Of a DNA stretch of 64,000 nt, positions 12,407-38,752 are shown piece after piece; position 1 is the stretch's first letter; each line of letters starts with the position of its first letter. The position numbers and the translations under genes are program-made. Below the pieces are notes generated by a model. That model was not told the DNA's origin. It did no database searches and saw only the letters and a program-made list of their open reading frames with translations. This stretch comes from Dissulfuribacter thermophilus (GTDB taxonomy: Bacteria; Desulfobacterota; Dissulfuribacteria; Dissulfuribacterales; Dissulfuribacteraceae), in NCBI RefSeq assembly GCF_001687335.1, contig NZ_MAGO01000001.1, positions 62,001-126,000 of the forward strand, in the 5' to 3' direction.

Positions 12407-12471
12407 CCCCAATTATGAACTTCGCAATTCTACCGAATGGGCACATGAACATTTGGGATTAGAACATGCCA

Positions 12472-19552: not shown

Positions 19553-21250
19553 TTAATTAACAAGGAGCTTTAGAGCATTACTAATTAGTTGTCTCCCAGA
19601 AATGCTCCTATTAATGAGGACATCATAGGTTCCAGGCGTAATCCCCCTTGGAAGAGAAAAGGAAAGCGAAGTGTAACTGACAACGCTGGGATTTGCAGGA
19701 ATCGAAGTCCCATCTCTTTTTAGCTGAAGCGTCAATCCCTTTACAAATCCGACACCTGTAACAGTAATCTTTGTCCTCGTATCTGTAGCATTTATTTCTG
19801 CAGGGACAATAGATCTCAAAAGTGGAGCTGGTATGACTATGACAAACGGGCCACCTTCACTCTCCATTCCATTTACAACCACCTTGATCTCACCTGAAAC
19901 CCCTCCCAATGGTATTCTTGCCTTAATGGAATGGGGTATAGCTGATTGAATAGTAAGCATCTCACCGCCAATAGTGACAGCATTTTTTTGCTCTACATCA
20001 TCAAAATTTCTTCCCTGAATTAAAATCTCATCTCCGGCCACTACTTCAATAGGGTCAACTGAATCTATCTCTGGAGGATAGGTAAAGGAAATATCTCCTG
20101 AGGCAACAGCACCGCTCGTATATACCCTTACAGTACCTGTCTCAGCCTCTGGCACCTTTACAATAAGCTGACTGGTCGATGCCTCCAATATGGTTGCAGC
20201 AAATGCATCACTGCTATCGGCATTGAATAAGACATAATTATTAGTGATAGTTGGACTAAAATTCCTTCCAAATATGGTAACTACATCGCCAGCACTTCCC
20301 CGTGGGGGATCTATAGATTCGATCACTGGAGTTATAGTGACTTCCACTGGAGAACTAGTCATATCATTTGCTGTGACTGTAAGGGGGCCTGTGTTGCCTT
20401 CTGGAACCAATACAGAAAGCTGAGTCTCTTTAGCTGATGTCACAGTTCCCCTCACTCCATTAAATACAACTATGTTTTTATTTTTATCAGGGTCAAAATT
20501 AAAACCCTTTATAGTGAGACTATCTCCTGGAGACAGGATTGTTGACGAAAGAGATTCTATATATGGCCCAACCTGGAAAGGAACCTGATTTGAAGCAATT
20601 CCGTCAACTGTCACCTGCACTACACCTGTTGTTGCCCCATACGGAACCCAGGTCTTAATACTGGAATCAGTTATTTCTATTATGGTGGCCTCTCTACCAC
20701 CAATAAATACCTTTACTAGATCTTGGTCAGTTCCAAAGCCCTGTCCTGATATAAAAACCACATCGCCTGTAATCCCTTTAGAAGGAGACACATGATCCAC
20801 ATATGGCGCGTCTACGAGGGTAAAACTTGACTCGCTCTTATCAATCAGTACCTTTGACTGGGCATCATATATAAAGGTCCTAATAACATAAACACCAGGT
20901 ATGAAGTTAAGATCAGGGGGTAACATTATAGACCACGATCCAGAGTCTATCTTCACAGAGGAAAAGGGCCAATTCTCTACAATAAACAGAGGATTATTCT
21001 TTGAAAACTGGGCGTCTGGACCGAGATAGGCAAGTGTCCCATCTGGAAATTCAAGGCTAATTGACACATCTACTGGGTAACCGTTTTCAAGCCCAGTTAG
21101 ATCAAGGAGCAGGTAAATCGGTTCAGGATTTACATAAACTGCCTTTTCCGGGGTTATACTGACTATATTTCCACAATTCCCATTGGGTACTATGGTCAAT
21201 AACGATGTCAGGGCCGTAAAAAAAATTGAAGCTATGATCTTTTTTACCAT
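19553..21250 (-). CDS. secreted protein with five IPT/TIG domains
   Basis: The product (565 residues) starts with a signal peptide (MVKKIIASIF, cleavage near residue 27). A beta-rich N-terminal domain (about 30-145) is followed by five IPT/TIG immunoglobulin-like domains at about 148-225, 226-305, 306-390, 391-470 and 471-565. Each IPT domain shows the family pattern: P-x-I-x-S-(I/V)-x-P at the start and G-x-x-(V/I)-x-I-x-G-x-x-F in the middle. IPT domains act as spacers or binding modules on cell surfaces. I chose ATG 21250 because GAGGGAG lies 6 bases upstream; ATG 21268 lacks one and overlaps the previous gene. The N-terminal domain resembles that of the next upstream gene. Partner and ligand are unknown. 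Confidence 0.82.
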   Translation of the reverse strand: MVKKIIASIFFTALTSLLTIVPNGNCGNIVSITPEKAVYVNPEPIYLLLDLTGLENGYPVDVSISLEFPDGTLAYLGPDAQFSKNNPLFIVENWPFSSVKIDSGSWSIMLPPDLNFIPGVYVIRTFIYDAQSKVLIDKSESSFTLVDAPYVDHVSPSKGITGDVVFISGQGFGTDQDLVKVFIGGREATIIEITDSSIKTWVPYGATTGVVQVTVDGIASNQVPFQVGPYIESLSSTILSPGDSLTIKGFNFDPDKNKNIVVFNGVRGTVTSAKETQLSVLVPEGNTGPLTVTANDMTSSPVEVTITPVIESIDPPRGSAGDVVTIFGRNFSPTITNNYVLFNADSSDAFAATILEASTSQLIVKVPEAETGTVRVYTSGAVASGDISFTYPPEIDSVDPIEVVAGDEILIQGRNFDDVEQKNAVTIGGEMLTIQSAIPHSIKARIPLGGVSGEIKVVVNGMESEGGPFVIVIPAPLLRSIVPAEINATDTRTKITVTGVGFVKGLTLQLKRDGTSIPANPSVVSYTSLSFSLPRGITPGTYDVLINRSISGRQLISNALKLLVN

Positions 21251-21261
21251 ATTAGGCTCCC

Positions 21262-22638
21262 TCACCATGAAGGCACTATTTCCACCTTTTGTCTAGCAAC
21301 AACCTTGATCCCTGCAATATCAACTATAAGGTCATAAAGACCATGAACTAGCCCCCTAGGAGTCTTTACTGTCAATCTGGTGTTAGTTGCATCAATAATT
21401 GTAAGGGGTATCTGTCCTAAAGACACTGATATTGACCTATTAGAATCACCAAATCCTGCACCTAAGACAACAATATTTTCTCCTGGGACAATCTTTCTGG
21501 GGAAAAAACCGTAGATCTGGGGTCGATTATATCCTATTAGATATCCTTCGCTCTCAACTCCATAACTAATGACCTTTACCTCAATGGCCGTTGCCCCGCC
21601 TATATTCAGGGGAGGCACCCCTACTGTCAAGGTAGTGTTTGTAGCATCCAAAATGGTGCCAGGAACCCCTGAAAATAGCACACTGTTAAGGTTCTTTTCA
21701 GGAGCAAAATTTTTGCCTGTAATATCAATAGAATCTCCGGATCTAAAATCTAACGGAGAAATGCTTGAGATTGTAGGTGCTATAAAAAATGGAAAGGCAT
21801 TACTAATTACCTCTACAACTTTAGGAATCCGACTATGATCTATAATCGATTGATTTTCTGCCCAATATGGAAGTATCAGGTGTTCTACTAGATCTCCTGT
21901 AATGGCTGTGGAAAGTAGACGAAACTTTAGTATGGTACCATTTGATGCCAGGTAAGTCACTGGTTGTTCCTCACCACCAACAGTAATCCTGACGTTCATC
22001 AGATCAATCAATTGGGGATCTACAAGAGCTGGATCTCCTCGAAGATTTCGCCCTTTTACTGAAATGATCTCTCCTGGCTTTCCAAAAGGTGGGGCCACCT
22101 CCTCTATTATCGGCCTAGAGGCATTGGCAATGTTAGGAAGGATTTCTTCGCTCACCAACCAAAAGTAACTCATGGAGGTGTCCTTAAATCCAGGACCTGT
22201 GATCTTGGCTGAAAGGGTATATCGCCCTGCTGGCAGGTCTCCAATCGCTGTGTCATTTCCCCCTGTAGGTGAACGTTTGAAAACCTTTGTCCCGTCTAAG
22301 GTAAACAAATCTGAGATAGGGATATCTACAAATGGAAATTTTTCCAGGACCAACGTGGCATTTGGATGAAATTCAATCCTCGGATCGAGATACGTAACAT
22401 TTCCTCCAGGTAACTCTAGGGAGATGCTGATGTCTACTGGGGTCCCAGGCTTAATACCACGAAGATACCCCAAGACTTTTATAGGATTGCTTAGAGGATA
22501 CGGATAAACATACTTTTCTGTGGTCACATAAATATATTGATCTGCTGAGGCCTCAGGGGGTACAAAAATACTCTCCCCCAAAAGCAAGATCCACAACAAA
22601 TAAATAACGAGATACGCAATTCCTCTATTTTCCATCAT
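21262..22638 (-). CDS. secreted protein with three IPT/TIG domains
   Basis: This is a 458-residue exported protein. The signal peptide spans about residues 1-32 (IAYLVIYLLWILLL core). Residues 35-170 form a beta-rich domain containing the motif VDISISLELPGG and a PAGRYTLSAKI strand. IPT/TIG domains follow at about 178-280, 288-370 and 375-458. The first domain of this protein, of the IPT protein downstream and perhaps the C-terminus of the 1424-residue protein look like one domain type. The start overlaps the stop of the upstream cohesin-dockerin gene in an ATGA junction, so the two are translationally coupled. Function is unknown; a surface or extracellular structural role is inferred. Confidence 0.82.
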   Translation of the reverse strand: MMENRGIAYLVIYLLWILLLGESIFVPPEASADQYIYVTTEKYVYPYPLSNPIKVLGYLRGIKPGTPVDISISLELPGGNVTYLDPRIEFHPNATLVLEKFPFVDIPISDLFTLDGTKVFKRSPTGGNDTAIGDLPAGRYTLSAKITGPGFKDTSMSYFWLVSEEILPNIANASRPIIEEVAPPFGKPGEIISVKGRNLRGDPALVDPQLIDLMNVRITVGGEEQPVTYLASNGTILKFRLLSTAITGDLVEHLILPYWAENQSIIDHSRIPKVVEVISNAFPFFIAPTISSISPLDFRSGDSIDITGKNFAPEKNLNSVLFSGVPGTILDATNTTLTVGVPPLNIGGATAIEVKVISYGVESEGYLIGYNRPQIYGFFPRKIVPGENIVVLGAGFGDSNRSISVSLGQIPLTIIDATNTRLTVKTPRGLVHGLYDLIVDIAGIKVVARQKVEIVPSW

Positions 22639-25600
22639 CTAAGATACCTATCCAATATCATGACGGCATCTTCAGGGGATATCTGCCCATCACCATCTAC
22701 ATCGCCCACTGCCTTTTGATCTTCTCTAAGGTCCAACACCCCTAAAAATCCCAAAAAGGAATTAAGGGCGTCTTGAGGCGTCACACACAAGTCACCGTCA
22801 ATGTCACCTGGCAATACGATTTTTACCTTGCCTCCATGCATCTCCACTCCCTGAAGGTCTCCCATTAACTGAGAGGGGTTAAGGGGGTTTACATTTATAT
22901 TGGCTGAAATCTCCTGTTGTAGACACGTTCCTGTCCCGTAGCCACCTACATCCTTTACAGAAAAGACCAGATTACAAAGTTGGGCAGATACACCTTGAGC
23001 AATGGGTAAATGGCCATTGGAGAGCCCCCCTATTCTCAAGGTCCCCCTGGATTCATCTTCCACAGCTATACTCCATCCAAGAGTATCGTCAGTACTCTCA
23101 GCCCTCAAAAAATCCAAATAAGTCGAATCATATTGAATCTCCATACCCCATGCATCAATAGAATTTCCAACTCCGCTTACTTTGACTGGAACCTTCACAG
23201 TTGAATTAGGGGTGGCTATCCTCTCATCAATGGTCAATCCAGCGTATTCCACAGTACATGTCCTAGTGGAAACACCCCTGTTACCATCTGAATCAGTCAC
23301 TTCGAGCTTGATCTCGTATGATCCAGGCCCTTGCGGAGCTGTCCAAGACCATATGCCTGTGCCCTCATCTTTGATGTCAACTGGACTCCAGTTGTATGTA
23401 TATGGTGTATACCCACCACTTACCACTGGAGTAATAAAAACCGTTTCTCCTGGTGAGGCTGGGCAGGAATCAAGGCTCAATGAAACCTGAATCTGCTGTA
23501 CTCCTGTTAGAACTGTGGAGAATTTTCCTAGAAGTCCTAGTGGGCCTGTTCCATTTTGCCCTGCACCTACGATCCCTATGAGCGAATATGGTCCAGTTTT
23601 GACAGCACCAATGGAAATTGGATAAAAGATAGGACTCGTTGGATCTACGGCCAGTCTGCTACCCATGAGTATATTTGAAGGATCTGTGACGTTTAGAGTA
23701 AATAAAAGACGCCTGGAATCAGACTGAGAACTCTGACTCTGTGATGCGCAAAGACAGTAGTATTTTTCGTTTTCACTATCTTCTATAAGGTAAATGTCCT
23801 GAATATACCCGGGATCCTCTGTATTATTTGCCGGATATATACCAAGAAAGGAAAGAGAAGAAGGGTTGGTAACGTCCAAGGAATAAAGCCTTCCGTCATT
23901 ACCAACTACATAGGCGTAGTAACGACTCCCCTGTTTCATTACCTTGACCTTTGTGGCTATAGCCCCACCCATAGCCTCTGAAGAAAGAGAGCCAACGAGC
24001 TCTGGATTCGTCAAAAAATCCTGGGAACCCGAGATGCCAGGCGTGATCTTGAATACGTAAAGTCCAAGGGCTCCATAGGCCACATAAGCATAGTCCTCGC
24101 CTCCCTGGTCATGTATTAGAAATACATCCCTAGCACTGCCGCCGAGAACAACTGTGCTCTTGACCTCAAATGTAGCTGTAGAGGGATCAAACCCCAAAAA
24201 CTTCACTCCCTGACTCCCCAAAGCTATAGATAGGGTGAAGTCTCCTGAAGTGTTTTGAAACCCGTGTATTCCAAGGGCTTCCCCAACTACATCAAAATGA
24301 GAAAAGTCATCAAACCGGAAGTTAGGGGTACCTATACCCTTTAATGCCCTATAGCTTATTCCACCCTGTCCAAGGGAAATAAAAGAATGAATAGTGGTAT
24401 CATTAGATGAATCTATAGCGGAGAAAAGGTCCATTGGTTGGCCTGAGGACTGAGAAGAATCCAAGATGACTGCCCCACTCGTGCTGTTTGAGTCACTTTC
24501 ACGGATCAACCTCGGAATACTTGCATCTATGTCATAAAGTCTGAGGCCGCCCTCTAAATCCATTATGAGGGCATAGTGACTACCACCAATCTTGTATGCA
24601 TCTATGCGTAATGGAGTGGCACCTGGATCCCATTCGTGGAGCAATCTGAGAGAAGCCTGTCCTGGACTATCCAGATTCTCTCCTGTGATTACCTTTAGAC
24701 CGCCTCCTGCTTCAGCCACATAAATTCTCGGTATCTTACTCGCATTTACAGTCCCTCCAGTGCCGACAACCTCAAGTGCCTGAGAGGTGGTACCAAATGT
24801 AGTCACATATTGGATATAAAATGAATCTGATAGGCTAGTCCCAGGATTCGCATCTCCAGATGTCTTAAAAAGGACAGTGCCCCTGGAGCCTGCTGCTACT
24901 ATAAGAAAACCGTCTCTCATGGATTCATAGCCAGCGCTCTCTGCATGTATGTCCCTAACGTCAATGTCAATATCAAGCCATCCTGTTAGGTCTCCCTTAT
25001 CCTCAAAGACCTCCTTGAATGGATTCGAACCATTGTCATCCAACTCAAAGAGATGAATCCCCTTTTCTGTTCCAACAAATATCAAGGCCTCTGACGATGT
25101 ATCATTACTGTCTACTTGTTCTGACTGAAAAACGTGTATAACCCTTGGAGTTCCATCTACAAATCCAGTTAATCCCAGATCAACAAAACCGTTTGTAACA
25201 TTTGCATCCCCTATTTTATCCCTTTTTACCTCATAAACGTCTACTTCCCCTCCTTGCCAGCCTACAACCAGATAATCCTTACTGGTCCCTGTGGCATTCA
25301 GATCATCTATAAAGGAAATGGCTGTAGGAGAAACAGTTGATGTAAGGGTGTCGTTATTCGTGAATGAAGCATTCCACCCAAACACTCCCTGTTCAAGGGC
25401 CACGAATACCACCTTTGGTGCTGTGGCAGTGACCTTTCTACTACAGGTAAGATCCAATGGACTAGAAGGCAGCGAAATGAAATTTTCAGGACTGAGCCCC
25501 GTCCCATTGGATGAAAATTCATAGATATAGTAAGAGGGAGTGGCATTGCCGTCTGTGGCAGTTAAAAAAAGGGTATCTATATAGGATGAACCAGTGGAAT

Positions 25601-25982
25601 TAGCTCCACGCACCTCAAGGGCATATATGGGCTTGTTGCCATAGGAGTACTCTCGGTCAATAATTCTATTATCTCCATAAGAAGGACTATAACGAAGGGC
25701 AACTAGTCCTCCTCCGTAGGTACTTATGAATGCCGTTGCATTGCCAGGGTCATCATCAATGTTCAATACTCCAGAAATCACCTCTCCAGGGGCCCTAAAC
25801 TCATCGGAAAAAGGGTCAGATACCTGATCCACCGGAGTTTCGTGTCCACTAAGGCCGCTTAAAAGTGCTGCACTATGGACCGTGGTCACATCTGCCATTA
25901 AAAGGGTTGTCACCCACAAGGCAGTCGCCCAAAAATAAGCTCTCAAGCCCATTTGCCTAGGCATGGTCCTCATTGCGCCCAC
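22635..25982 (-). CDS. secreted beta-propeller protein with cohesin and C-terminal dockerin
   Basis: The 1115-residue product has a signal peptide, then a long run of LVIVD-type propeller repeats (about 50-820) with the recurring pattern V-x-G-x-x-G-(I/V)-x-x-F. An Ig/PKD-like domain follows (about 830-925), with a YTYNWSP motif. Next comes a cohesin domain (about 927-1050), with the strand KVSGVGNSIDAWGMEIQYD. A type I dockerin ends the chain (about 1058-1115). It has two EF-like calcium loops, DIDGDLCVTPQDA and DVDGDGQISPEDA. Cohesin and dockerin modules bind each other, so one chain carrying both could join or chain with its paralogue. The start is GTG at 25982; ATG 25973 and 25964 are alternatives. 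It is a close paralogue of the gene at 25995. Confidence 0.85.
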   Translation of the reverse strand: MGAMRTMPRQMGLRAYFWATALWVTTLLMADVTTVHSAALLSGLSGHETPVDQVSDPFSDEFRAPGEVISGVLNIDDDPGNATAFISTYGGGLVALRYSPSYGDNRIIDREYSYGNKPIYALEVRGANSTGSSYIDTLFLTATDGNATPSYYIYEFSSNGTGLSPENFISLPSSPLDLTCSRKVTATAPKVVFVALEQGVFGWNASFTNNDTLTSTVSPTAISFIDDLNATGTSKDYLVVGWQGGEVDVYEVKRDKIGDANVTNGFVDLGLTGFVDGTPRVIHVFQSEQVDSNDTSSEALIFVGTEKGIHLFELDDNGSNPFKEVFEDKGDLTGWLDIDIDVRDIHAESAGYESMRDGFLIVAAGSRGTVLFKTSGDANPGTSLSDSFYIQYVTTFGTTSQALEVVGTGGTVNASKIPRIYVAEAGGGLKVITGENLDSPGQASLRLLHEWDPGATPLRIDAYKIGGSHYALIMDLEGGLRLYDIDASIPRLIRESDSNSTSGAVILDSSQSSGQPMDLFSAIDSSNDTTIHSFISLGQGGISYRALKGIGTPNFRFDDFSHFDVVGEALGIHGFQNTSGDFTLSIALGSQGVKFLGFDPSTATFEVKSTVVLGGSARDVFLIHDQGGEDYAYVAYGALGLYVFKITPGISGSQDFLTNPELVGSLSSEAMGGAIATKVKVMKQGSRYYAYVVGNDGRLYSLDVTNPSSLSFLGIYPANNTEDPGYIQDIYLIEDSENEKYYCLCASQSQSSQSDSRRLLFTLNVTDPSNILMGSRLAVDPTSPIFYPISIGAVKTGPYSLIGIVGAGQNGTGPLGLLGKFSTVLTGVQQIQVSLSLDSCPASPGETVFITPVVSGGYTPYTYNWSPVDIKDEGTGIWSWTAPQGPGSYEIKLEVTDSDGNRGVSTRTCTVEYAGLTIDERIATPNSTVKVPVKVSGVGNSIDAWGMEIQYDSTYLDFLRAESTDDTLGWSIAVEDESRGTLRIGGLSNGHLPIAQGVSAQLCNLVFSVKDVGGYGTGTCLQQEISANINVNPLNPSQLMGDLQGVEMHGGKVKIVLPGDIDGDLCVTPQDALNSFLGFLGVLDLREDQKAVGDVDGDGQISPEDAVMILDRYLR

Positions 25983-25994
25983 ACTAAATTTATC

Positions 25995-28900
25995 CTATGA
26001 GCCAGAAACATAGGTATCGAGGATCAAAATTGCATCGTTCGGGGTCACCATTCCATCATTGTCCACATCTGCCACTTTGGCCTCGTCATCCCTGAGATCA
26101 GTAAGCCCCAAGTAGTACAAAAATGCACTGAGGGCATCTTGAGGGCTAAGTGAACAACTACCGTCAAGATCCCCTGGAACCACTATGTTTACAGTCCCTG
26201 GAGTTAAGTTAACCCCTGCAATGTCATCCACTCCATTACTCAGAGATATTGTCACTGAAGTACACGTTGAGGCAATTGGAGAGGCCGTAAAAATGAGATA
26301 GGCAAGGTCTGCAGATGCCCCGCTCGATATTGCCGAATTTCCATTTGCCTGGCCACCAATCTTCAGGGTCCCTGCCGGATTCTCATTTACTGAAAAGGTC
26401 CATCCTGCTGTATCTGATGTCCCTTCAATGCCATAATATGAGAAATTGGTGGTGTCATAAGTGGCGACAATACCAAAGGCATCTATGTCTGCTGCAACTC
26501 CAGTGACGTGTATTGGGACCCTTACAAACCCTCCAGGTTTTACTATTCGGTCGCTTATGGAGAGCCCAAGGGGCTGAACCTGAATGGTTGCAGTACCAAT
26601 ACCTGTATTCCCATCTCTGTCAGTAACCCTTACAGAGACATTGTATATTCCAGCCACATCAGGGGCTGTCCATGTAGGTGAAGCGCTTGTTGCATTATCA
26701 ATAGAACCAGCGGTACTTCCAGATTTGTCAGTCACGCTCCATTGATAAAAGTACGGCTGACTTCCCCCTCCTGGAGTCGCAGTAAGCAAACTTGTCCCCT
26801 GGGGCTCAACAGTACGAGGTGAAGCACTGACATTTACAGTGATGTTCGACGCCTGGGAGATCTGAACTAGCATCCTCCCCAAAAGCCCCCTATAGCCCGT
26901 ATCTGACAGTTGCCCACCAAGTTCTCCTACGATTATAATATTATCAGTCCCGGATTCAGTAACGGCTACAGACCTAGCTTCATACGTTACAGCAAGTGCG
27001 TTGCTATAGAGCATCTCAGAGGGATTGGTAATATTAATGGTAAACACCTGGGAGGCACCTACTGAGCCTGTCTTCTTTTCCGTGCTCGCTACCACTAAAT
27101 AATAGCGATTGTTTCCAGATATAGCTGTAAAATCCACAATCCCTGCTGGACTTGGATTAAGGGAATTGTTCCCAGGATAAGAGACAGAGTTCGTGCCATC
27201 GGTTACAACTGCTGCTGCAGAGGGATTTGTTATATCTACAGGTACTATCTTTCTAACAGACGGGTCATTCGGATCAAAGACAAGGCAGTAGGCCATGTAT
27301 TTAGTTGATCCATTTATAGTCTGCTGAACCACCTCGACCTTTGATACGCTCCCCCCAAGGTCAACTGTTGTAACAAGCTCAGGATTTGAAAGATAATCGG
27401 CATTATTGCCAGAATCACTGGTAATCTTCAGGATCACAAGTCCGGCTGTACCATATGCAACTACTGCATAAGAATCTGAACCAATATTCTGTAAAAGGTA
27501 AATGTCCTGGGCCGTACCATTTATGTGAACTTTACTCTTTTTAGCAAATTCATTTTTACTAGAATCATAGGTGAGAAACATGACCCCTGCGTCACCATCA
27601 GCCACCCCCAGGACAAACCCGGATGTGGTCTTATATCCGTCGATCCCCAGGGCTTCTCCGTCTGTTTTAAAGGCAGTTCCGTTAACTGGGTAATCGATAG
27701 TGGCACTTGTGGCATTCACGCTACCTAATTTGAGATATTTTATCCCTCCACTACCTGCGGCAACGAATACGTTGGCATCTGTCTCGTTTCCATCTACGTA
27801 TAATGCCCTTGGTTCACCGGCAAGATTGGATCCTGTCCCAAACTTAGTTCTTCTGCTAGTCCAACCAAGATCAATTCCCAGCATGCCCCCGTCACTCTTC
27901 TTTTCCACCATAGGAACTGGGGCATTGTTAGAATCTCCTATTGTGTATGCGGAGATGCCGCCTGACTGATCAAGTACCACCACGTAGTCTTTGACAGCTT
28001 TTACATCTATAGGGGCAACAGATTCATCCCACTGGTAAATGAGATCAAGACTTCGACTGGTGTCGTCATTAAGATTGGAACCTTTTAGTACCTTTATCCC
28101 CCCACCGCCATCGGCAACAAAAATTTTGGGAATATCAGTTGAATTAGCCCCCTTAACCCCCATGATTTCATAGGCCTCACCTGAAGTATCCAGGTTTGCA
28201 ATGTATTGTAAGGCCAGTGTGTCAGTCTTTAAGGTAGCATTTCCCGATGTCTTGAATATGTATATCCCCTTTTCGCCACAGGCTGCCAAAAGCCAATCAT
28301 CTCGAAAATCTGCTGTCACATTTGCAGCATAAATACCCTTTACGTTCAATGTACCTATGTCAGAGGAAATATTCCCAAATTCCCTTAAATCAAGAGTACT
28401 GTTGTCTTCACTATCGAGCTCAAAGGCATATATTCCTGAGTCTGTCCCAACAAAAATGAGGGTCTCATTGGCGTCAGGATTTGGATAGTCATGGATAGCT
28501 GAGTTGGTATAGGTAGAGATACTTTGTCCTGTTGCGCTAAAGCTTTTCCCCAATGAATAGGATATGGCATCTTGACTGTCGTCACCACCAATATTCGAAG
28601 GGGCTAAGGTAAAAACATCTAGTATATTCGGACCAGTAACTGCCAGGTAATCTGTCTGAGATGAACCCTTTATTTTTGCACTAAAGTGCTCTATGGAATA
28701 TGCAGGATAGGCCAACTGGAACACGTCAAAGTCTGGTTCTCCTCCGTAACGTGCCCATTGGCCTGAGGATTCATCAAATTTTATGGCAAAAAGGATTCCC
28801 CCTGTACCTGAAAGTTGTCGTGCTCCAATTATGACGTAATCGTCAGAACCGGACGAAAAGGCCTCTATAGACTGGCCTTCGTAGGTAACGGACTGGTTAT

Positions 28901-29423: not shown

Positions 29424-29446
29424 GACAGTATCCTCCTATGCTGGGC

Positions 29447-30202
29447 CTACAGTTTTTTACTGACCTGTACAACTACGGCCTGTTTCATCTGACCTTGCCC
29501 ATAATCCCATTTGGCCTCAATTGGATATTGTCCACTAGGAAGGTCTATGCCAGGGAGAATAAAAAAGAGCATATCCTTTAATGGATCGTAAAAATACGAG
29601 CCAGCTCCAACCAGAGCACCTGTTATGTCGATTCCTTCATATAAAATTGAAGCTGTTTTGAGCTTGGAGACTTTGGGGACGACCATAAATAGGTTTGCAA
29701 CATCTGCTGGCATACTCCATAAGCTCACATCATCTGGCATGTCAGGACAAAATCCCCTAACTGGAGAAACAATTGCCCCTCGTATATCTCCTTCGAGAGA
29801 ATCCTCTTTTATGGTAATAGGAATACATCTTTGACCTTGATGGGCCTCTATTATAAATCGAGGTGATAGCTCTACTCTCTCTATTCCTTTTGCATTGACA
29901 TACCCAATTCTTAAGATACACCCGTTGACACTGGCATTAACGATATCCCCTTCCAGTCTATCAACCCCAAGAAATCTAAGTTTATCAGGAGGATATACCA
30001 ATTCTAACCCCACAGACTGAATCTTTTTACCCGGATCAGCTACAAGAACGATCTTTGAAACCAGTTGCCCCTTCTCTTCTTTTAGCTCTAGACCCACTGT
30101 TGGGGCACATAAAGCCTCTTTGTTCAAGATCAGAAATGCTATTAACGCAGACAAAACTGCCAATGTATTCTTCCATTTTGGGTAAAAACTCTTTTCATTC
30201 AT
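29447..30202 (-). CDS. secreted cohesin-domain protein
   Basis: This 251-residue protein has a signal peptide (about 1-32, ending ALCA). A single cohesin-like beta-sandwich follows (about 34-145), with the strands KIVLVADPGKKIQSVGLELVY and LRFLGVDRLEGDIVNASV. A C-terminal beta-rich domain (about 165-251) ends in a region with FILPGIDLPSGQYPIEAKW. It has no dockerin, so it could be the receptor for the dockerins encoded by the two genes that follow it. A very strong Shine-Dalgarno (GGGAGGAG) precedes the ATG. It is spaced 43 bp from the upstream gene and 23 bp from the downstream one. The cohesin call is weaker than for the two long proteins. Confidence 0.7.
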   Translation of the reverse strand: MNEKSFYPKWKNTLAVLSALIAFLILNKEALCAPTVGLELKEEKGQLVSKIVLVADPGKKIQSVGLELVYPPDKLRFLGVDRLEGDIVNASVNGCILRIGYVNAKGIERVELSPRFIIEAHQGQRCIPITIKEDSLEGDIRGAIVSPVRGFCPDMPDDVSLWSMPADVANLFMVVPKVSKLKTASILYEGIDITGALVGAGSYFYDPLKDMLFFILPGIDLPSGQYPIEAKWDYGQGQMKQAVVVQVSKKL

Positions 30203-30245
30203 GGCACTCTCCTCCCATGGTCCCTACACTGCCAATTATTTAGAT

Positions 30246-33200
30246 TTAATTTATCCTAAAATCTAAGATATCCTCTCCAATAACCGCCTCTGGCGTTTTC
30301 TCGGGATCGGCTCCAGGCCTCGTCAACAAAAATTTCAGTTTGCCCGAAAGGGCAGAAACATCTTCAGGTATATGTGAAAGAAATGTTTGAGCAGTGACGT
30401 TTCTGTCAAAAAATATGCTTCTTATTACTGGCTCTGGAGACGATGGAAAAGGACCATCACCGTAGGGCTTTGCTTCAAGAGATCCATCTTTTCCCACTAT
30501 CCAGTAATACGTTGATGTTGAATCCCCTGCAGTGATTTCAGTAAGTAGGTACAAGTCCACCAACTTTGGTTCACTTGGCCGAATTGTTATCAGTATCCCC
30601 ATGTCATCGCCTGGATGAAAGACCCTCTGGATGGCTCCAGGATAAAGGGTAGTCTCAATATCCACAGGAATTAAACTTGAAAAATCAACAGATTGGGCTC
30701 CAAATGAGCTAATCCCCGTCCTCGCCTTGGCACGACCATCAGAGTCGACAAAATAGACGTCATAGGAACCGGGATCTGGAGAAAAAGATAATGAAGTGGC
30801 ATTGTATGTGGCACCAAGCTTCAACAGATATCCCTTATTCGTAAAGACGAAGGAATTCCCTAGGCTAGAATTATCTATGCCATGGATGTCCAAACGGCTC
30901 TCTGTACCTAGATAGGTGGGGACAGGAATTGCCCCAATACCTTCAGGAGACAGGTAATAGACCGCACCCTCATATCGGTCTTGACCAATTGAGTAATGAA
31001 CCCATAACTTTCCTGTAAAAATGTCCTTTGCTCCGGTGACCGGATACCTTCTTAGGAGCCAGGGATTGAGATCTGTCAATTCAAGGATATCAATCCATGA
31101 ATCCTCTATCAGCACAGCAAATGCCATGTGTTTTCCTTTATAATTGGCCAATGGATGATCTATGGTAAAGACCAGGGCCTTTTTAAAGCGGTTAAAGTCG
31201 TAGGCCCTTCCATTTAAAAAGAGCCCCCTTTGTACCCCCTCTTTTATTGGAAGTATTTTCCCTGATGCATCACAGAATATTCCGAAGCCTCCACTGAGGG
31301 CCCCATGAATAGGTCTTATTTCGAGACTCCATGAATCCCTCAAAACTGGTACATATGGATTAATTGTCTCCACAAAAGTGCATTTGCCCGATTGATCCAC
31401 AGAGACAATCCCATTGTCATGGGAAAAAAGGAGCTTTGGCCTTATTGTCGAAATATTCCATATAAGCGGAAGAGAAGTACTTTGGCCTTGACCATCAAAG
31501 GCCTCGAGACTCAAAATTCCTCTTTCAGTTCCAATGAAAAGATTTGGATATCTAAAAACCGAATCAGTAGGATGAAAAGGAAGATATATTTTGTCTGAGG
31601 CCAGGGAAATACCTTCAAAACCGCGATCAAGCCTAAAGACCTCGAGAGTATTATTTGAAAATGCAAGGAGTTCATATTGGCCATTTCCCTTATTTCCTGG
31701 ACCAAAGATGAAATCAGTCTCGTCCACCTTCTTTGACAAGCCAAAGGATCCTATGTGGCGTAGAGACTGCGAAACAGGATCAAGCGAAACGACATCTAGG
31801 TAATATCCACCATTTAAAACCAGTTTTTCTTCTTCTGGGAAATAAAGCGCTGAATCTGCCCCAGATTCTACACCAGATGTCTTAAACTTTTTGATTAGGC
31901 CCTGTGGCACTAGGAAAATAGGATGGAAAATAGGCTTGGTACCGATTAGTTGAAAAGGACCAAGGACTTGGGACTCAAAACCTGATGCCGACACCTCTAA
32001 CCAAAATAATGCATCATTGTCTATTCCATCTACCTCAAAGTTACCAGCTCCGTCAGTAGATATATCAAAGAGTACTGAACCGTCCTTTGTGTTCAGTCCC
32101 CTGACCTTTGCCCCCTGTATTGGATGAGGGCTAAAATCTATAATGGATGACAAAACCGTCCCAAAAAATGTTGGATTTGGTTCTGATTCAGTAACCTCAG
32201 ATAGTTTTCCAGTGGTTTGAGGAAAAAGTTTTAAAGCCCCAGTGTACTCAGTCCCTGGTGGGACATACAACTCCTCTAAAACCTCCTGATATCCATTTGC
32301 TTTTAGTTCGAGTATGTACGTACCTGGGGTTATGTCACGCTTTTCAAAACGACCTGAGGCATCGGTCCGCGCTGTGAACACCTCGGTTCCATCTTTTAGG
32401 GTAAAAATGAGCTGGGCATTCCATATTGGGGAAAGATCAGTTTTTGCCAGAACAATCCCGGAAATACTACTTTTACCTATAGCTTCTATGTTATCTACTG
32501 TTGTTATGGGCTGTTGGTCTTTAAACATATGAACCACTATTCCACTTTTTTGTTCTGACGATACTTGAATTCTGTATCCCTCAAGAGGTTGGTATCCTGG
32601 AGGATTAACCCAAAGGGTATAGTTTCCACTTAGAAGCTCTGATGTCTCATAGTGGTCCTTCACAAAATAGAAATTCAATTTTTTATTATTAAAATCAATT
32701 AGATATAGAGTTTGAGTTGAAAGGCTAATAGGAGTGAAGCTGGTCCCGTCAACTACCTGTAATAGGATCTTTCCGCCATTCAGGCTAGAGGCACTCAGTT
32801 TTCCCGGGTCAAACTTATGAAGGTACAGATTATAAACATTGCTACCCTTTTCAACAGAAACTGTCTGTTTTACTAAATGGGTCTTTCCCGAATCGGTTAA
32901 TGTCGCACTTAACACATAGGAATTACCTGGTTCCAGGCCGTGGAAAGTCACGACACCAGTTGTGGTTGTTGGTCCCTCAACCTTTATGGTCCTACCTATC
33001 CGATCGTCATAAAGGCTGACCTGGACGCCTTTAACCCCAACTAGTGAAATCGGATCTATGACCCTTACTTCTAAAGTTGTTTTGAGGGCTTTTTTAACAA
33101 AGAGATTTATTGGATCTGTTTCAGAGATGGACTGAGGACTTGTGACCAGAGAATATGCCCCCTCTCCCTCTGCGAGCCACATATATTTGAAGTCGTCACC

Positions 33201-34520
33201 CTTTCTAAGCCAGTCTATCTCACAACAGCCATCTTCTCTTGTAATGCAAGAATATAGGCCAGTTACATCCCTTATCCTCAATCCCTGGGCTGGAATCCGT
33301 GAATCTTCAAAAAAAGCGCAGAACTTACCATTGATGTAGGAATAAACATCACCTGTAGGCCGCCCCAGGGGCAGAAGTTCAATGATTACGTTTTTTATAG
33401 TAGAATTGTCATCTTTGAGAGTAACAGTAACTGAGCCCTCCTGATATCCCTCCCTATGGACAAGGAGAGTGTAAGTTCCAGCCCCAATACCATCTATCAG
33501 AAATTCGCCACCGCCTCCTGTAACCACAGAGACTAGACGACGCAAATCACTGCCTTCTCCTTCATAGGCAACAACTTCAGCAGCAGCAATTGGGTCCAAC
33601 GTGGTTGAGCTTCTGACAATTCCCTCTATTGAACCGAAAAATTCTACAACTACGTCTTCACCAATTCCAAACACTGTAAAGGCAGACGCCCCGTTAAATC
33701 TGTCATCCATGCCCACAAGATAAAGGGCCTGCAATCCTGGTGAAGAACTGGTGAAATCAATTTTAACATTACTGCCTGTCTTGATAATAAAATCACTACC
33801 TAATGGATAATGAATCTTAAAGGGATCTACCCAGTAATAAATTGATAAAGGATTCCCGTACTCATCAGTTCCACTTCCTGATGCTGTTATGTTGGCATCC
33901 TCGTATCTTGCCTCAAAGGCTGGTTCAGAGATTGAGACCTTCGGCTCCTTTTCACCGACTGCCTTGAACAGAAGTAGCCCTCCACCCTGCCTATAGGTCT
34001 TAAAATCGTTTACTGTGCCACTTGGAACAATGGGGATTGTCAGGTATTTTTCTGGCGGTATTTGAAAATCATCAACTAGTTTTAGTTTGAATGTCGCCAA
34101 AGCCATTATCCCATGCTTCACCTGACCGTCGTTCCAGGTAGACGAAACAGGGTTAAGGGCTGAACCACCAATTATAAGCTCCTTTAAATATGGCCTATTT
34201 TCATCAAAGACCTGGTTTTCGACGAGATTTGCACCTAGAAAATCAAAATTTTCCGTCAGTCCGGTCCTAGACAGACTATTCGGCACATAAGTGACATATC
34301 TTGTGTCCAACAACACTGAAAAACCAAAGGCCCTCAATTTTTCTGCCTTGACATAAACAGTGAATGTGACCTCAGCTCCCGGCACTGCTTCTACGGTTTG
34401 AGGGCCGATAAAAAACAGGTTTGTCCTGGCCTGGCCATTTCCAGCAAGTATTAACAGAAGCCAGAAAAAGGCCAGGCAAACCACTTTGATTCTTTCATTC
34501 AAACCAATGGACCACTTCAA
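30246..34520 (-). CDS. large secreted multidomain protein: cohesin-like, carboxypeptidase-regulatory repeats, propeller
   Basis: At 1424 residues this is the largest protein here. After a signal peptide (about 1-31) comes a cohesin-like domain (about 36-180, TVYVKAEKLRAFGFSVLLD). An Ig-like region (about 195-295) leads into several carboxypeptidase-regulatory-like beta-sandwich repeats between about 298 and 870. These carry the pattern D-x-x-G-x-F-x-x-x-x-I-x-x-G-x-Y-x-L. A beta-propeller-like region (about 880-1250) and a C-terminal beta domain follow. No catalytic motif is seen. It starts 19 bp after flgE with no terminator between them. The start codon is TTG at 34520, 9 bases after AGGGG. 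The module calls are by pattern; the function is inferred to be extracellular and structural. Confidence 0.8.
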   Translation of the reverse strand: MKWSIGLNERIKVVCLAFFWLLLILAGNGQARTNLFFIGPQTVEAVPGAEVTFTVYVKAEKLRAFGFSVLLDTRYVTYVPNSLSRTGLTENFDFLGANLVENQVFDENRPYLKELIIGGSALNPVSSTWNDGQVKHGIMALATFKLKLVDDFQIPPEKYLTIPIVPSGTVNDFKTYRQGGGLLLFKAVGEKEPKVSISEPAFEARYEDANITASGSGTDEYGNPLSIYYWVDPFKIHYPLGSDFIIKTGSNVKIDFTSSSPGLQALYLVGMDDRFNGASAFTVFGIGEDVVVEFFGSIEGIVRSSTTLDPIAAAEVVAYEGEGSDLRRLVSVVTGGGGEFLIDGIGAGTYTLLVHREGYQEGSVTVTLKDDNSTIKNVIIELLPLGRPTGDVYSYINGKFCAFFEDSRIPAQGLRIRDVTGLYSCITREDGCCEIDWLRKGDDFKYMWLAEGEGAYSLVTSPQSISETDPINLFVKKALKTTLEVRVIDPISLVGVKGVQVSLYDDRIGRTIKVEGPTTTTGVVTFHGLEPGNSYVLSATLTDSGKTHLVKQTVSVEKGSNVYNLYLHKFDPGKLSASSLNGGKILLQVVDGTSFTPISLSTQTLYLIDFNNKKLNFYFVKDHYETSELLSGNYTLWVNPPGYQPLEGYRIQVSSEQKSGIVVHMFKDQQPITTVDNIEAIGKSSISGIVLAKTDLSPIWNAQLIFTLKDGTEVFTARTDASGRFEKRDITPGTYILELKANGYQEVLEELYVPPGTEYTGALKLFPQTTGKLSEVTESEPNPTFFGTVLSSIIDFSPHPIQGAKVRGLNTKDGSVLFDISTDGAGNFEVDGIDNDALFWLEVSASGFESQVLGPFQLIGTKPIFHPIFLVPQGLIKKFKTSGVESGADSALYFPEEEKLVLNGGYYLDVVSLDPVSQSLRHIGSFGLSKKVDETDFIFGPGNKGNGQYELLAFSNNTLEVFRLDRGFEGISLASDKIYLPFHPTDSVFRYPNLFIGTERGILSLEAFDGQGQSTSLPLIWNISTIRPKLLFSHDNGIVSVDQSGKCTFVETINPYVPVLRDSWSLEIRPIHGALSGGFGIFCDASGKILPIKEGVQRGLFLNGRAYDFNRFKKALVFTIDHPLANYKGKHMAFAVLIEDSWIDILELTDLNPWLLRRYPVTGAKDIFTGKLWVHYSIGQDRYEGAVYYLSPEGIGAIPVPTYLGTESRLDIHGIDNSSLGNSFVFTNKGYLLKLGATYNATSLSFSPDPGSYDVYFVDSDGRAKARTGISSFGAQSVDFSSLIPVDIETTLYPGAIQRVFHPGDDMGILITIRPSEPKLVDLYLLTEITAGDSTSTYYWIVGKDGSLEAKPYGDGPFPSSPEPVIRSIFFDRNVTAQTFLSHIPEDVSALSGKLKFLLTRPGADPEKTPEAVIGEDILDFRIN

Positions 34521-34539
34521 TTGGTTTAGCCCCTATTTT

Positions 34540-36039
34540 TTACCTCTTCATATTGAGGAGCTCGCTCATCATGTCGTCTGTAGTAGTTATAAGCCTAGAG
34601 TTCGCCTGAAAGGCCCTTTGGGTAGTTATCAACTTTACGAATTCAGTTCCAAGATCCACTGTAGACTGCTCTAGGGCATTAGATGCTATGGATCCTAATC
34701 CATTAGTCCTGGGTTGACCTGTAATTGCCGGCCCTGAGGCAGTAGTTTGACGAAAGAGATTACCGCCTTCTTTGCCAAGGGCCTGAGGTGCGTTAAAACG
34801 TGCCAACGCCACCTGTGCTAGTGCTACAATCCGACCGTTTGAATAATGGCCAGATATAACCCCCTCTGAATCTACGTTAATGCTTTCGAGAAAACCTGGC
34901 CCAAATCCATCCTGGTCATAGAAGATAGTACTTGAACGATTGGCATACTGGGTTGAACTGATGGCATCTGTATTCCACTTTAAAACCGTAGGTGGAGATG
35001 TGGTACGATCTAGAGTTGCCTGTGCGCCAAAATTGAATTCTATAATCTGTGCAGACTGATCCTGACCCGTTGATGGATTTACAGTTCCTGTTGGCGGTAT
35101 AAAAAATGCCACTAGTTGCGGATAATTATGATCTCCATAGGTTACTGGCTCCCAGGTACCACCATTAAAACGTTCAATGGGACTGGTTGGATCTCCGGCC
35201 TGTCCGTAGATCGCCTCAATTTGTCCCTGAGGAGTGAATTTGATGTGTCCCCTCATTAACATCCCAGCCTGTGGTGTACCAGCAGCAGCGCTCTTATCCT
35301 CATTGGGATTCATAGTCACTAAAAACTCCCACTCCCTCTCATTTGCAGTCCTGTCGAAATAGATCGTAAGGTCATGGGTATTTCCAAGGCTATCATATAT
35401 ATTTAGGGAGGTCCTATATTCATAATGAACATTTGCAGTAAGGGTCCCTGCATCTTTACCATCTGTGGAAACCCAGTCATCCCAAAGAGTAGCTGGGCTC
35501 ACAGGTCCAGGAGTCCTGCTGTCCAGATTGACAGTTAATGTTGTTTGAGTTGTTGCTACTGGTGGTGAAGAATTTGATATTTGAATGCTCTGTATCCCAC
35601 CAATTATTTCAGCGGAACCATCTGGTTGAGTCTCCATCTTCCAACCCTGCACCCTTAACCCGGCAGGATTCACCAAGTATCCAAATTGATCCAAGTGGAA
35701 TTGACCATCACGGGTGTAATACAAGCTGTTTTCCACCTTTGGATCAGTGACGATAAAAAATCCATTTCCCGCAATGGCAAGGTCTGTAGGAGATGATGTG
35801 CTCTCAAAAGATCCTTGAATAAATAATGGAGAAACGTCTGCCATAGATGAACCGCGTCCTATCTGAGATGTGCCACTGGCGGTGTTAATGTTTAGGGCCA
35901 TAATATCTTGGAATGTAGCCCTTGCCCCTTTAAAGGCTGTAGTATTGATATTTGAAATATTGTCGCCGATGACCTGCATGGCCGTCCCCATGTTTGAGAG
36001 CCCACTAACTCCTGAGTAAAGCGAACTTGTTAGACCCAT
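34540..36039 (-). CDS. flgE: flagellar hook protein FlgE
   Basis: FlgE polymerises into the hook, the flexible joint between the flagellar rod and filament. The 499-residue product has the conserved N-terminal D0 segment (SLYSGVSGLSNMGTAMQVIG, with NISNINTTAFKG) and the conserved C-terminal helix (STVDLGTEFVKLITTQRAFQ). Both helices form the inner core of the hook. The middle domains are of moderate size. It lies 2 bp after flgD and belongs to the fliK-flgD-flgE cluster. The next gene downstream starts only 19 bp beyond its stop. Confidence 0.96.
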   Translation of the reverse strand: MGLTSSLYSGVSGLSNMGTAMQVIGDNISNINTTAFKGARATFQDIMALNINTASGTSQIGRGSSMADVSPLFIQGSFESTSSPTDLAIAGNGFFIVTDPKVENSLYYTRDGQFHLDQFGYLVNPAGLRVQGWKMETQPDGSAEIIGGIQSIQISNSSPPVATTQTTLTVNLDSRTPGPVSPATLWDDWVSTDGKDAGTLTANVHYEYRTSLNIYDSLGNTHDLTIYFDRTANEREWEFLVTMNPNEDKSAAAGTPQAGMLMRGHIKFTPQGQIEAIYGQAGDPTSPIERFNGGTWEPVTYGDHNYPQLVAFFIPPTGTVNPSTGQDQSAQIIEFNFGAQATLDRTTSPPTVLKWNTDAISSTQYANRSSTIFYDQDGFGPGFLESINVDSEGVISGHYSNGRIVALAQVALARFNAPQALGKEGGNLFRQTTASGPAITGQPRTNGLGSIASNALEQSTVDLGTEFVKLITTQRAFQANSRLITTTDDMMSELLNMKR

Positions 36040-36041
36040 AT

Positions 36042-36731
36042 TTACCTCCCTAGGTTTTGTTTTACGCTTTGAATATCTTTAAGATTTGTTGTCTCTCCAG
36101 TATCTAAAGACAGTGCTATATTTCCATTTACCTCTGTCTTTAGGCCAACCACTGTGCCTTGAGTCCACAAGGTGGTATCCAGATTGTTGCCCTCTTGATC
36201 AAGAGCTGTAACTGTCATGAAATATGTACCAGGATTCACTGTCTCTCCTGCATCATCTTTCCCGTCCCAGACAAATTCGGTTTTTTCACCCTGAATCCCT
36301 CCAATATCTATATTTCTTACTATTCTTCCCTGTTCATCGGTTATAGTGACAAGGGTTGAGGCAGACGGTTTGTCCAGTTGAATCTTTACTGGGTCAGCTC
36401 CACCTTCTGTTAACCTTACGGCACTCCCTTTGTAGGTAACATCCTTTCCTAAAAAGCTTACGGATTCCGTCAAACTACTGGCTTCAGTAGCATCTACGAG
36501 CTTTGTAATTGCCTCATTGTTTTTATACATGAGATCAACCATATTGAACTGGGCCACCTGCGTAGCCATCTCAGCACTTTGCATTGGATTCATGGGATCT
36601 TGATACTGAAGTTGCGTAACAAAAAGTTTCATAAAATCTTCCCGGTCTAGCTGGGCTCTCTGATTATTGGAGGCCGCTTTTAGTTCTTCTATTCCGTTAT
36701 TGCTCACAGTATTTATTGTTGGTACTGCCAT
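36042..36731 (-). CDS. flgD: flagellar hook assembly scaffold FlgD
   Basis: FlgD forms the temporary cap at the tip of the growing hook and is lost once FlgE assembly ends. The 229-residue product begins with the conserved motif DREDFMKLFVTQLQYQDPMNP (shown from about residue 29). It continues with a FlgD Ig-like domain and a Tudor-like domain; FVWDGKDDAGETVNPGTYF is the FLGD-Ig hallmark. It lies 15 bp after fliK and 2 bp before flgE, so all three are on one transcript. Confidence 0.95.
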   Translation of the reverse strand: MAVPTINTVSNNGIEELKAASNNQRAQLDREDFMKLFVTQLQYQDPMNPMQSAEMATQVAQFNMVDLMYKNNEAITKLVDATEASSLTESVSFLGKDVTYKGSAVRLTEGGADPVKIQLDKPSASTLVTITDEQGRIVRNIDIGGIQGEKTEFVWDGKDDAGETVNPGTYFMTVTALDQEGNNLDTTLWTQGTVVGLKTEVNGNIALSLDTGETTNLKDIQSVKQNLGR

Positions 36732-36746
36732 TTCTTCTCTGCCTCC

Positions 36747-38687
36747 TTAAACCCTAATGCTAAGTGCTTGCCCTTGTGTCCAAGAGATAAAATGAGATCT
36801 GTTAATTTGATCCTCAGTTATATTTTTTGATTTAGCTGTTTTCCAAGACAGTCCTTTGGTGCTACCATCAGAGTTTCCCCTGTAACGATCGTGAAAACTC
36901 CACTGTGTTTGTGCATTTGATCCTGATTCATGACCTGATACATCCACACTAAATTCTTGGAGATGAAAACCACTATGTGCCAATGTCTCTTTCAAAATAT
37001 TGTGGTGTTGAAGGAGTAGGCCCTTAACGTCTTTAACTTCTGTTACAAAAGCCGCCTTTACAGTGTTATCTGTCTGGTCTACCTTCAAATCCACCTTTAT
37101 TCGCCCAAGTTCAGGGGGATGAAGCCTTAGATACAATCGATTCTCTCCCCTTTTTATGGATTGAACTATGCCCTTACCAATTGTATTAACGAGCTCAACG
37201 GCCTCTTGATCCAACACATGCGGTTTTACCGTATCTGTTGCCTGAGCATAGGACGTATTTCCAAGACCGGGTTTAACAGAATGATCTTGAATAGAGCCAG
37301 TTACATGCCCTATTTCTTTAAAATTGCTATTTTTTGCATTATTTTTCGCCAAATTAGGCTCATCAATATTATTACGATTAGCTTTTTCTTGTTTAAAAGG
37401 ACTAATCTCTCTCAAGTCTTCGATTGCTTTGCCATCAGCCAAGACTTTACCATTACTCTCTTTTAACTCTCCTTGGTCATAGAGAGATATATTCTGATTG
37501 TTTTCATCTTTTAAAATAATTTTATTTGGCGATATGTTTTTCTTTGAATTTCCCTTTTCTTGATTTTTATAAAACTTATCAAGCTCCAAGCTTTCATTTC
37601 CAAACTTAGCTATTTTGACTGATTCTTGCTGTAACACAGGAGAATCATGTACTTTTCCTCGTATTACATTGAAACCATCTTGAAAAAAATCTCCTTTGGA
37701 TGGACCAAAGGAGGGCTCCTCTTGATTTTCAAAACTATCCAGAATCTTGGAGTGATCTTTCTCTACAGTTATATTCGCAATCCCACGATATTTAGCGCCA
37801 GAGGCTAGATCTTCCGAGACTGCGGAATAAGGCATACCTTTTACATCCTTACCCCCTGCTGTTGACTGTGATTCAACCATAGGGGCTTTATTAGAAACAT
37901 CTATTTGACGAAGAGTCTGTTGAACTATTTCCTTTGTTTGAAACTCCTCAAACTCGCTTGGACTAGACTTCAGAAAATCAATTATCCTTTTTAAGCTCTC
38001 GGTAAGCTCAGATATTTTTTTATTGTGAGGTGAAAGATCAGATTGCAAAAAGTGATTCTCAGATGGGATCTTTTTTCCATCTTCTTTAAAGAATTCTAGT
38101 TTTATTTGATCATCAGCATTAATTTCCTTATTAAGGCCAATAGGACCTGTTTTAATGTAATATTCATTAGGTTTTAATTGTGATTCTTTTAAAAAAACTA
38201 CTTTATTCAGAGGATCAGTGAAATTTTTTTCTATAAGATCAATAATCCCAAATAAAAATCCTTGCCCATCCTCCCTTCCTTTAGATTCCGCCGTATTATC
38301 TTTAATTTTTGCCTCTTTTTCTAGACTTTGTAACGAATCCATCTGAGGTTCAGGGCTACTGCCTTCAACAGGCTCATCTAAAGGATTCGAAAAACTATTA
38401 AGGGCCTTAAAAAGTTCATTTAAATAGCCTTCTAAAGTCAAATCTCCATTAGACTGCTCCTTGGAAAGGTTCGTTAAAAATTCCTTAAGCTCTCCTAAGA
38501 CCTGAGTCTTCAACCCCTGAACGCCATTTTCTCCAGCATCTTTGCACAATCCAGCCAAGGCCTCGTTGAACATTTCCACAAATTGATGATCTTCTGCAAA
38601 GACTTCTCCTGCGACAAAACCTTCCGTGGATCCTTTGATCAAAGATCCTGGAGTCATCAATCCCAATATTTCACTTAACAGGATCAT
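36747..38687 (-). CDS. fliK: flagellar hook-length control protein FliK
   Basis: FliK measures hook length and switches the flagellar export gate from hook to filament substrates. The 646-residue product has a long, poorly conserved, polar N-terminal part. Its conserved Flg_hook domain (about 520-605) carries the motif LRLHPPELGRIKVDLKV. It is the first gene of the unit and follows a sigma-54-type promoter at 38735-38752. The 38-nt leader between the predicted start point and the ATG is short. The family call rests on the C-terminal domain and gene position. Confidence 0.92.
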   Translation of the reverse strand: MILLSEILGLMTPGSLIKGSTEGFVAGEVFAEDHQFVEMFNEALAGLCKDAGENGVQGLKTQVLGELKEFLTNLSKEQSNGDLTLEGYLNELFKALNSFSNPLDEPVEGSSPEPQMDSLQSLEKEAKIKDNTAESKGREDGQGFLFGIIDLIEKNFTDPLNKVVFLKESQLKPNEYYIKTGPIGLNKEINADDQIKLEFFKEDGKKIPSENHFLQSDLSPHNKKISELTESLKRIIDFLKSSPSEFEEFQTKEIVQQTLRQIDVSNKAPMVESQSTAGGKDVKGMPYSAVSEDLASGAKYRGIANITVEKDHSKILDSFENQEEPSFGPSKGDFFQDGFNVIRGKVHDSPVLQQESVKIAKFGNESLELDKFYKNQEKGNSKKNISPNKIILKDENNQNISLYDQGELKESNGKVLADGKAIEDLREISPFKQEKANRNNIDEPNLAKNNAKNSNFKEIGHVTGSIQDHSVKPGLGNTSYAQATDTVKPHVLDQEAVELVNTIGKGIVQSIKRGENRLYLRLHPPELGRIKVDLKVDQTDNTVKAAFVTEVKDVKGLLLQHHNILKETLAHSGFHLQEFSVDVSGHESGSNAQTQWSFHDRYRGNSDGSTKGLSWKTAKSKNITEDQINRSHFISWTQGQALSIRV

Positions 38688-38734
38688 CTAATAGTCTTCC
38701 TCTGCAAAGCATGCGTATGGTCTTGAAACATGAA

Positions 38735-38752
38735 TTGCAAAAGACGTGCCTG
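38735..38752 (-). promoter_or_regulatory. sigma-54 (RpoN) promoter upstream of fliK
   Basis: Read on the minus strand the site is AGGCACGTCTTTTGCA. The invariant GG and GC pairs are separated by exactly 10 bases, and it fits the TGGCACG-N4-TTGCA consensus except at the first base. The predicted transcription start is near 38725, about 38 bases before the fliK ATG. Sigma-54 control of hook genes is well known in flagellated proteobacteria. The activator (an FlrC/FleQ-type protein) is not in the window. Confidence 0.75.

Follow-up and report, generated by a model that had tools for sequence, protein, structure and literature searches.

Why should the genes of a flagellar hook run on into genes for large secreted proteins that carry cohesin and dockerin modules? 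The locus that raises this question belongs to Dissulfuribacter thermophilus S69T, a sulfur disproportionator of deep-sea vents (PMC5276818), whose genome comprises 2,524,199 bp in 27 contigs; we analysed a stretch of 64 kb, referred to below as the window. What cohesin and dockerin proteins do outside cellulosomes is, according to a review, not known (PMC5244752). The question becomes testable here, the gene set being compact, present in a cultured type strain, provided with a short list of partners and a predicted switch, and clearly linked in the genome to the building of flagella. The answer that we favour, with a confidence somewhat short of even, is that these genes encode an exported cohesin/dockerin surface complex of non-enzymatic beta modules, which would belong to one sigma-54 regulon with hook synthesis and would serve attachment or the formation of a matrix.

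All genes of the locus are located on the minus strand. The hook genes fliK (hook-length control, 36747..38687; Pfam Flg_hook, 3.4e-14), flgD (hook cap, 36042..36731; Pfam FlgD, 4.7e-17) and flgE (hook protein, 34540..36039; Pfam FlgE_D2, 2.9e-24) are followed by six genes for secreted proteins. These are BIG (30246..34520), with a cohesin-like N-terminus, CarboxypepD_reg/PEGA repeats (Pfam) and a beta-rich C-terminal half; the small cohesin-type protein COH (29447..30202); the propeller protein P4 (25995..29423), with propeller(s), PKD, cohesin and dockerin according to Pfam, profiles and a structure model; its paralogue P3 (22635..25982), 33% identical to P4; and the IPT/TIG proteins IPT2 (21262..22638, three TIG domains; Pfam TIG, 3.5e-21) and IPT1 (19553..21268, five TIG domains; Pfam TIG, 4.5e-42), the latter with a likely start at 21250. 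In the ORF map, the gap between flgE and BIG is 19 bp and the subsequent junctions measure 43, 23, 12 and -4 bp; IPT2 and IPT1 are 11 bp apart only if the inner ATG at 21250 is used, the longest ORF of IPT1 (from 21268) overlapping IPT2 by 7 bp. The ORFs and gaps given in the initial annotation of this DNA all stand, with the 11 bp value depending on that inner ATG, and its statement that no terminator hairpin separates the genes was borne out by hairpin scans of all junctions. Terminator-like hairpins were found at no junction between fliK and the end of IPT1, every match on the minus strand lying within an ORF, and between flgE and BIG this genome showed neither an intervening terminator nor a strong promoter-like site. 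As had been annotated, all six products start with an N-terminal hydrophobic, signal-peptide-like segment, and so do their homologues; none of the six has a later membrane span. The arrangement in which hook genes run on into six secreted genes of a cohesin/dockerin set is real and is conserved across genera.

The modules of these proteins were assessed with Pfam, with profiles and with structure models. A profile built from the C-termini of P3 and P4 plus relatives was searched against the PDB and matched solved cohesins (6kgc, 6e-8), and a separate stretch of it, positions 128-188, matched solved type I dockerins (2ccl, 6e-6; 1ohz, 2.8e-5). By sequence, the C-termini of P3 and P4, like those of their relatives, contain a genuine cohesin and, behind it, a genuine dockerin of type I, in which the Ca-binding loops are paired. 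The cohesin of P4 extends over 26181..26567 (profile against PDB cohesins, 6e-8) and its dockerin, with two Ca-binding loops, over 26004..26177 (profile against PDB dockerins, 6e-6); in P3 the cohesin lies at 22815..23237 (Pfam Cohesin, 1.2e-6, over the cut-off) and the dockerin at 22644..22811, the Pfam dockerin matches being weak in both proteins. The two dockerins of the initial annotation were thus recovered, and of its four cohesins those of P3 and P4 are genuine and that of COH is supported by profile-profile comparison (hhalign against the propeller cohesins, E 1.6e-7, probability 94%), but the N-terminal module of BIG (33951..34424) is only tentatively and weakly cohesin-like (hhalign E 1.7e-4, probability 49%). 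Neither the COH profile nor the BIG N-terminus gave a match in the PDB, the structure model of COH was poor (pLDDT 43), and at most one cohesin per protein was detected by Pfam, PDB profile or hhalign.

In the predicted model of P4 (pTM 0.47), a seven-bladed WD40-like propeller was seen at residues 462-855 (Z about 30), the region to which the VIA-align fold comparison applied. The stretch before residue 462 is modelled as all beta at lower confidence and possibly forms a second propeller; of the three propellers annotated earlier, one is thereby visible in the P4 model, and the total may exceed three. An integrin likeness of the whole P4 model in Foldseek (TM 0.16-0.24) was discarded as probably reflecting the propellers alone. 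Pfam gave 5+3 TIG/IPT domains, in agreement with the eight annotated, and assigned none of the six products to an enzyme family, consistent with the reported lack of a catalytic domain. In the relative G001, IPT2 (L030 3280-5940) is about doubled, to 886 aa, through near-identical internal repeats of IPT modules.

In the genomes that carry the set, all cohesins and dockerins that are above the Pfam cut-off or profile-supported fall within the six genes, the lone exception being a sub-threshold dockerin match elsewhere in this genome (G000:C10, E 0.009). Docking partners, if docking takes place between chains, are therefore most likely to be found inside the set. Docking might also occur within one chain, the cohesin of P3 or P4 binding its adjoining dockerin in a Ca-dependent manner and stabilising a secreted protein of a thermophile without any multi-protein assembly, which would be compatible with any other reading of the locus. 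In every complete P3/P4 homologue the two modules stand in direct tandem at the C-terminus, and the genomes hold few or no other partners, as such a clasp would have it, but COH and (weakly) BIG have cohesin-type modules without a dockerin of their own, suggesting partners on different chains, and we regard the clasp as a serious but minority possibility.

The distribution of the set was followed in 46 genomes of the order and in a wider sample of 297 genomes of the phylum, the relatives being 'Deltaproteobacteria' MAGs; G000 denotes this genome, and f1, f5, f6, f8, f9 and f11 are the family labels of the comparison. The BIG, propeller, IPT1 and IPT2 families were common to the same six of the 46 genomes, which represent three GTDB families (G000, G001 and G002 in f1; G007 and G015 in f6; G045 in f9), and a few other genomes of the order gave short partial matches only. 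COH was found in five of the six carriers, the exception being G015, a draft of 90% completeness whose propeller gene is truncated by the end of a contig. The full set had no match among the 297 phylum genomes sampled; G247 and G248 were rejected as such matches, their cohesin/dockerin part alone being similar. A BIG-type gene was found behind flgE in all six carriers (in G015 with 661 bp of intervening sequence that contains repeats and Ns), so that the adjacency of flgE and the first secreted gene, which the initial annotation had proposed to look for in relatives, extends over three GTDB families.

Gene order in G001 and G045 is that of the window (flgE, BIG, COH, propeller, IPT2, IPT1), the G045 set spanning two contigs with the break inside the propeller gene, and G002 shows the window's order, both propeller genes included, also on two contigs. 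In f6 the genes are dispersed, with BIG behind flgE, the COH-propeller pair of G007 elsewhere and the IPT genes elsewhere. In f8, in G006 (f5) and in G040 and G044 (f9), flgE is directly followed by secDF, an empty site seen at loci L037, L040, L044 and L085. In the window, secDF (15562..18135, SecD/SecF family export protein; Pfam SecD_SecF_C, 1.6e-82) comes after the cluster and a gene for an MFS transporter (18268..19491; Pfam MFS_1, 8.5e-33), which occupies the same place in G002, where secDF likewise follows; the block therefore sits in f1 at a definable place between flgE and secDF. FlgE is 84-92% identical in the f1 relatives, and at about 25-65% the identity of the cluster proteins is lower than that of FlgE in the same comparisons (76-92%), a faster divergence that suggests exposed surface proteins.

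Two observations concern the mobility of these genes. On either side of the COH-propeller pair of G007 (L034) lie repeated elements of one family, ~40-300 nt long (1853-2615, 7053-7719, 12109-13700), which suggests that the pair was moved. In the distant genomes G007 and G248, a secG-tRNA-Leu(GAG) site (L104 6780-6864, L100 6788-6874) is followed by a secreted-protein cluster, IPT2-IPT1 in one and a different cohesin-type cluster in the other, suggesting a shared landing site.

The FlgE proteins of the carriers group together, with a support of 0.83 for f1 plus f6 and of 0.56 once G045 is added. G040 and G044, which belong to the genus of G045, have a different FlgE and no cluster; G045 itself combines the cluster with a FlgE of the carrier type. 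That the G045 contigs had been misbinned was rejected: the transaldolase encoded next to IPT1 shares 91-92% identity with those of G040 and G044 and 81% or less with others, the neighbours are the same as in the genus-mates, and the tetranucleotide signatures fit G045 best. Judged from these sequences, fliK-flgD-flgE and the cluster would either have come in jointly or have stayed jointly while the genus-mates changed; the grouping of the carrier FlgEs, with its modest support values, may be explained by plain shared ancestry.

On a rival reading, the six proteins would be accessory parts of the flagellum, forming an external collar or sheath of the hook or a periplasmic motor scaffold and being co-expressed with the hook. 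BIG has kept its place beside flgE in genomes in which the rest of the set lies elsewhere, the carrier FlgEs group together with G045 having and its genus-mates lacking both FlgE type and cluster, and Sec-exported motor scaffolds are known elsewhere (PMC11870540). However, searches in Pfam and NCBIfam returned no match of the FlgP, FlgO, FlgT, MotY or PflA-D type and thus nothing that would connect the six products by sequence to known scaffold or ring proteins, no anchor for a membrane, the outer one included, was seen in them, their divergence is rapid relative to FlgE, most flagellated members of the order do without the set, and shared ancestry may be all that the FlgE grouping reflects. 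We consider such a flagellar role improbable.

The initial annotation had placed fliK-flgD-flgE behind a sigma-54 site, and this site, AGGCACGTCTTTTGCA (38736..38751, minus strand, 48 nt upstream of fliK, one mismatch), proved to be the best of the window, its score of 15.8 out of 18.8 being the highest on both strands ahead of a runner-up at 12.3. Relatives have corresponding fliK sites scoring 12.6 to 17.2 in f1, 18.0 and 15.9 in f6, 14.3 in f8, 15.1 in f5 and 15.9 in f11; at the same threshold none was found at fliK in several f9 genomes. Upstream of the cluster genes of the window no site scored above 9, so that expression of the cluster from sigma-54 would need readthrough. Where IPT genes are detached, which is the case in three genomes, three of the four units have a strong site of their own (G007, 17.2, immediately after a tRNA-Leu gene; G045, 17.0; G015, 15.1), suggesting that sigma-54 control is a conserved feature; IPT2 of G015, detached alone, has a site of only 11.6, the COH-P4 unit of G007 only 9.9 and P4 of G015 only 5.3. 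A score of at least 15 within 320 bp is expected by chance at a rate of about 0.003 (simulated sequence) to 0.008 (real loci), and when detached units of every kind are taken together, three out of six pass 15, with a binomial chance of about 1e-5 at the higher rate for a threshold that was set post hoc. Putative sigma-54 sites are a recurrent feature of the IPT genes as well as of the hook genes. A site before BIG in G015 (16.3) was discarded, as it sits in tandem repeats beside a run of Ns.

Genome-wide, the one-mismatch pattern scan gave 138 sigma-54 matches versus 27 for the reversed pattern, and the matches examined lay mostly inside ORFs. A type IV pilin-like ORF is preceded by a site scoring 15.3 (G000:C1:258138-258153, L123); a pilin is thus probably among the targets of sigma-54 in this genome, and a sigma-54 site does not prove flagellar timing. 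A perfect consensus (18.8) in non-coding sequence (G000:C7:172591-172606, L110), with no ORF of at least 80 aa starting within 300 bp, may precede a small gene or RNA, and a pattern match (G000:C4:34833-34848) just upstream of FlgE-family rod-type genes (matches from C4:34922) likely marks a second sigma-54 flagellar operon.

The pilin-like ORF lends some weight to an incidental neighbourhood, in which a block of surface-protein genes would have inserted behind flgE a single time, in an ancestor, and been inherited since then, its sigma-54 control being its own and having nothing to do with the flagellum. The narrow distribution, with carriers making up six of the 46 genomes of the order and the phylum sample lacking a full match, and the placement of genes at other sites in f6 point the same way, and beyond chance no upstream activator words were common to the fliK and cluster promoters. 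In G045, moreover, a 12-pair terminator follows the propeller gene (L082 6969-6939), with the strong sigma-54 site directly after it (6932-6917) and before IPT2, so that the block is not always one transcript. Against mere neighbourhood stand the gaps of at most 43 bp and the hairpin-free junctions of the window, together with the retention of BIG behind flgE in all carriers while the cluster proteins diverged to 25-65% identity. We therefore hold this explanation, too, to be rather unlikely, it and the flagellar accessory role each being about half as likely as the surface complex. Least probable in our view is that the set constitutes a new hook-linked appendage or collar, built by cohesin-dockerin contacts, exported by Sec, placed beside or around the hook of one lineage and inherited with its own FlgE type.

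The exported surface complex, our preferred explanation, would combine predicted propellers, IPT/TIG domains, PKD domains, transthyretin-like repeats, cohesins and dockerins. It probably serves attachment, a function that we prefer because cohesin/dockerin proteins have been proposed as adhesins in related sulfate reducers (PMC10553843). In this scheme sigma-54 would fire fliK-flgD-flgE and the message would run on into the secreted genes, a second sigma-54 promoter presumably firing the detached units in some relatives. The products would leave by Sec, and Ca-loaded dockerins would dock on cohesins within the set, so that the propeller proteins become linked to BIG and COH at the surface. An attachment or matrix layer would thus be deployed while the cell builds its flagellum.

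The modules are each known; their combination and genomic place are new, and the literature searched contained no paper on a cohesin system in a flagellar operon or on IPT/propeller proteins at flgE. The set resembles the clostridial cellulosome in having cohesins and type I dockerins that can be recognised from their sequence, but it has propellers and IPT domains instead of catalytic domains and a multi-cohesin scaffoldin, and the six proteins include neither dockerin-bearing carbohydrate-active enzymes nor a scaffoldin with several cohesins. As in other sigma-54-dependent hook operons, fliK-flgD-flgE lie behind a -24/-12 site; such operons usually carry ring proteins or flagellar parts exported via the flagellar type III route, whereas large Sec-type proteins follow here. 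The Sec-exported motor scaffolds FlgP and PflA-D (PMC11870540) are likewise additional exported proteins associated with the flagellar genes of a single lineage, but no sequence resemblance to them was found, and the domain make-up of the set is of a surface-adhesion type. The likeness to the putative cohesin/dockerin adhesins of syntrophic sulfate reducers and ANME archaea (PMC10553843, PMC5244752) is at the level of modules: those, too, are non-enzymatic secreted proteins with cohesins and dockerins, and they come from the same bacterial order (Seep-SRB2) among others. They are, however, discussed as adhesins of consortia, and the main text of PMC10553843 makes no mention of flagella, whereas the set described here belongs to a free-living relative and is joined to hook genes. 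The same study takes cohesin adhesins as a trait gained with syntrophy and states that they are absent from clades related to Seep-SRB2, an inference that is qualified by our results because Dissulfuribacter (22635-25982, 25995-29423) and several of its relatives carry cohesin/dockerin proteins.
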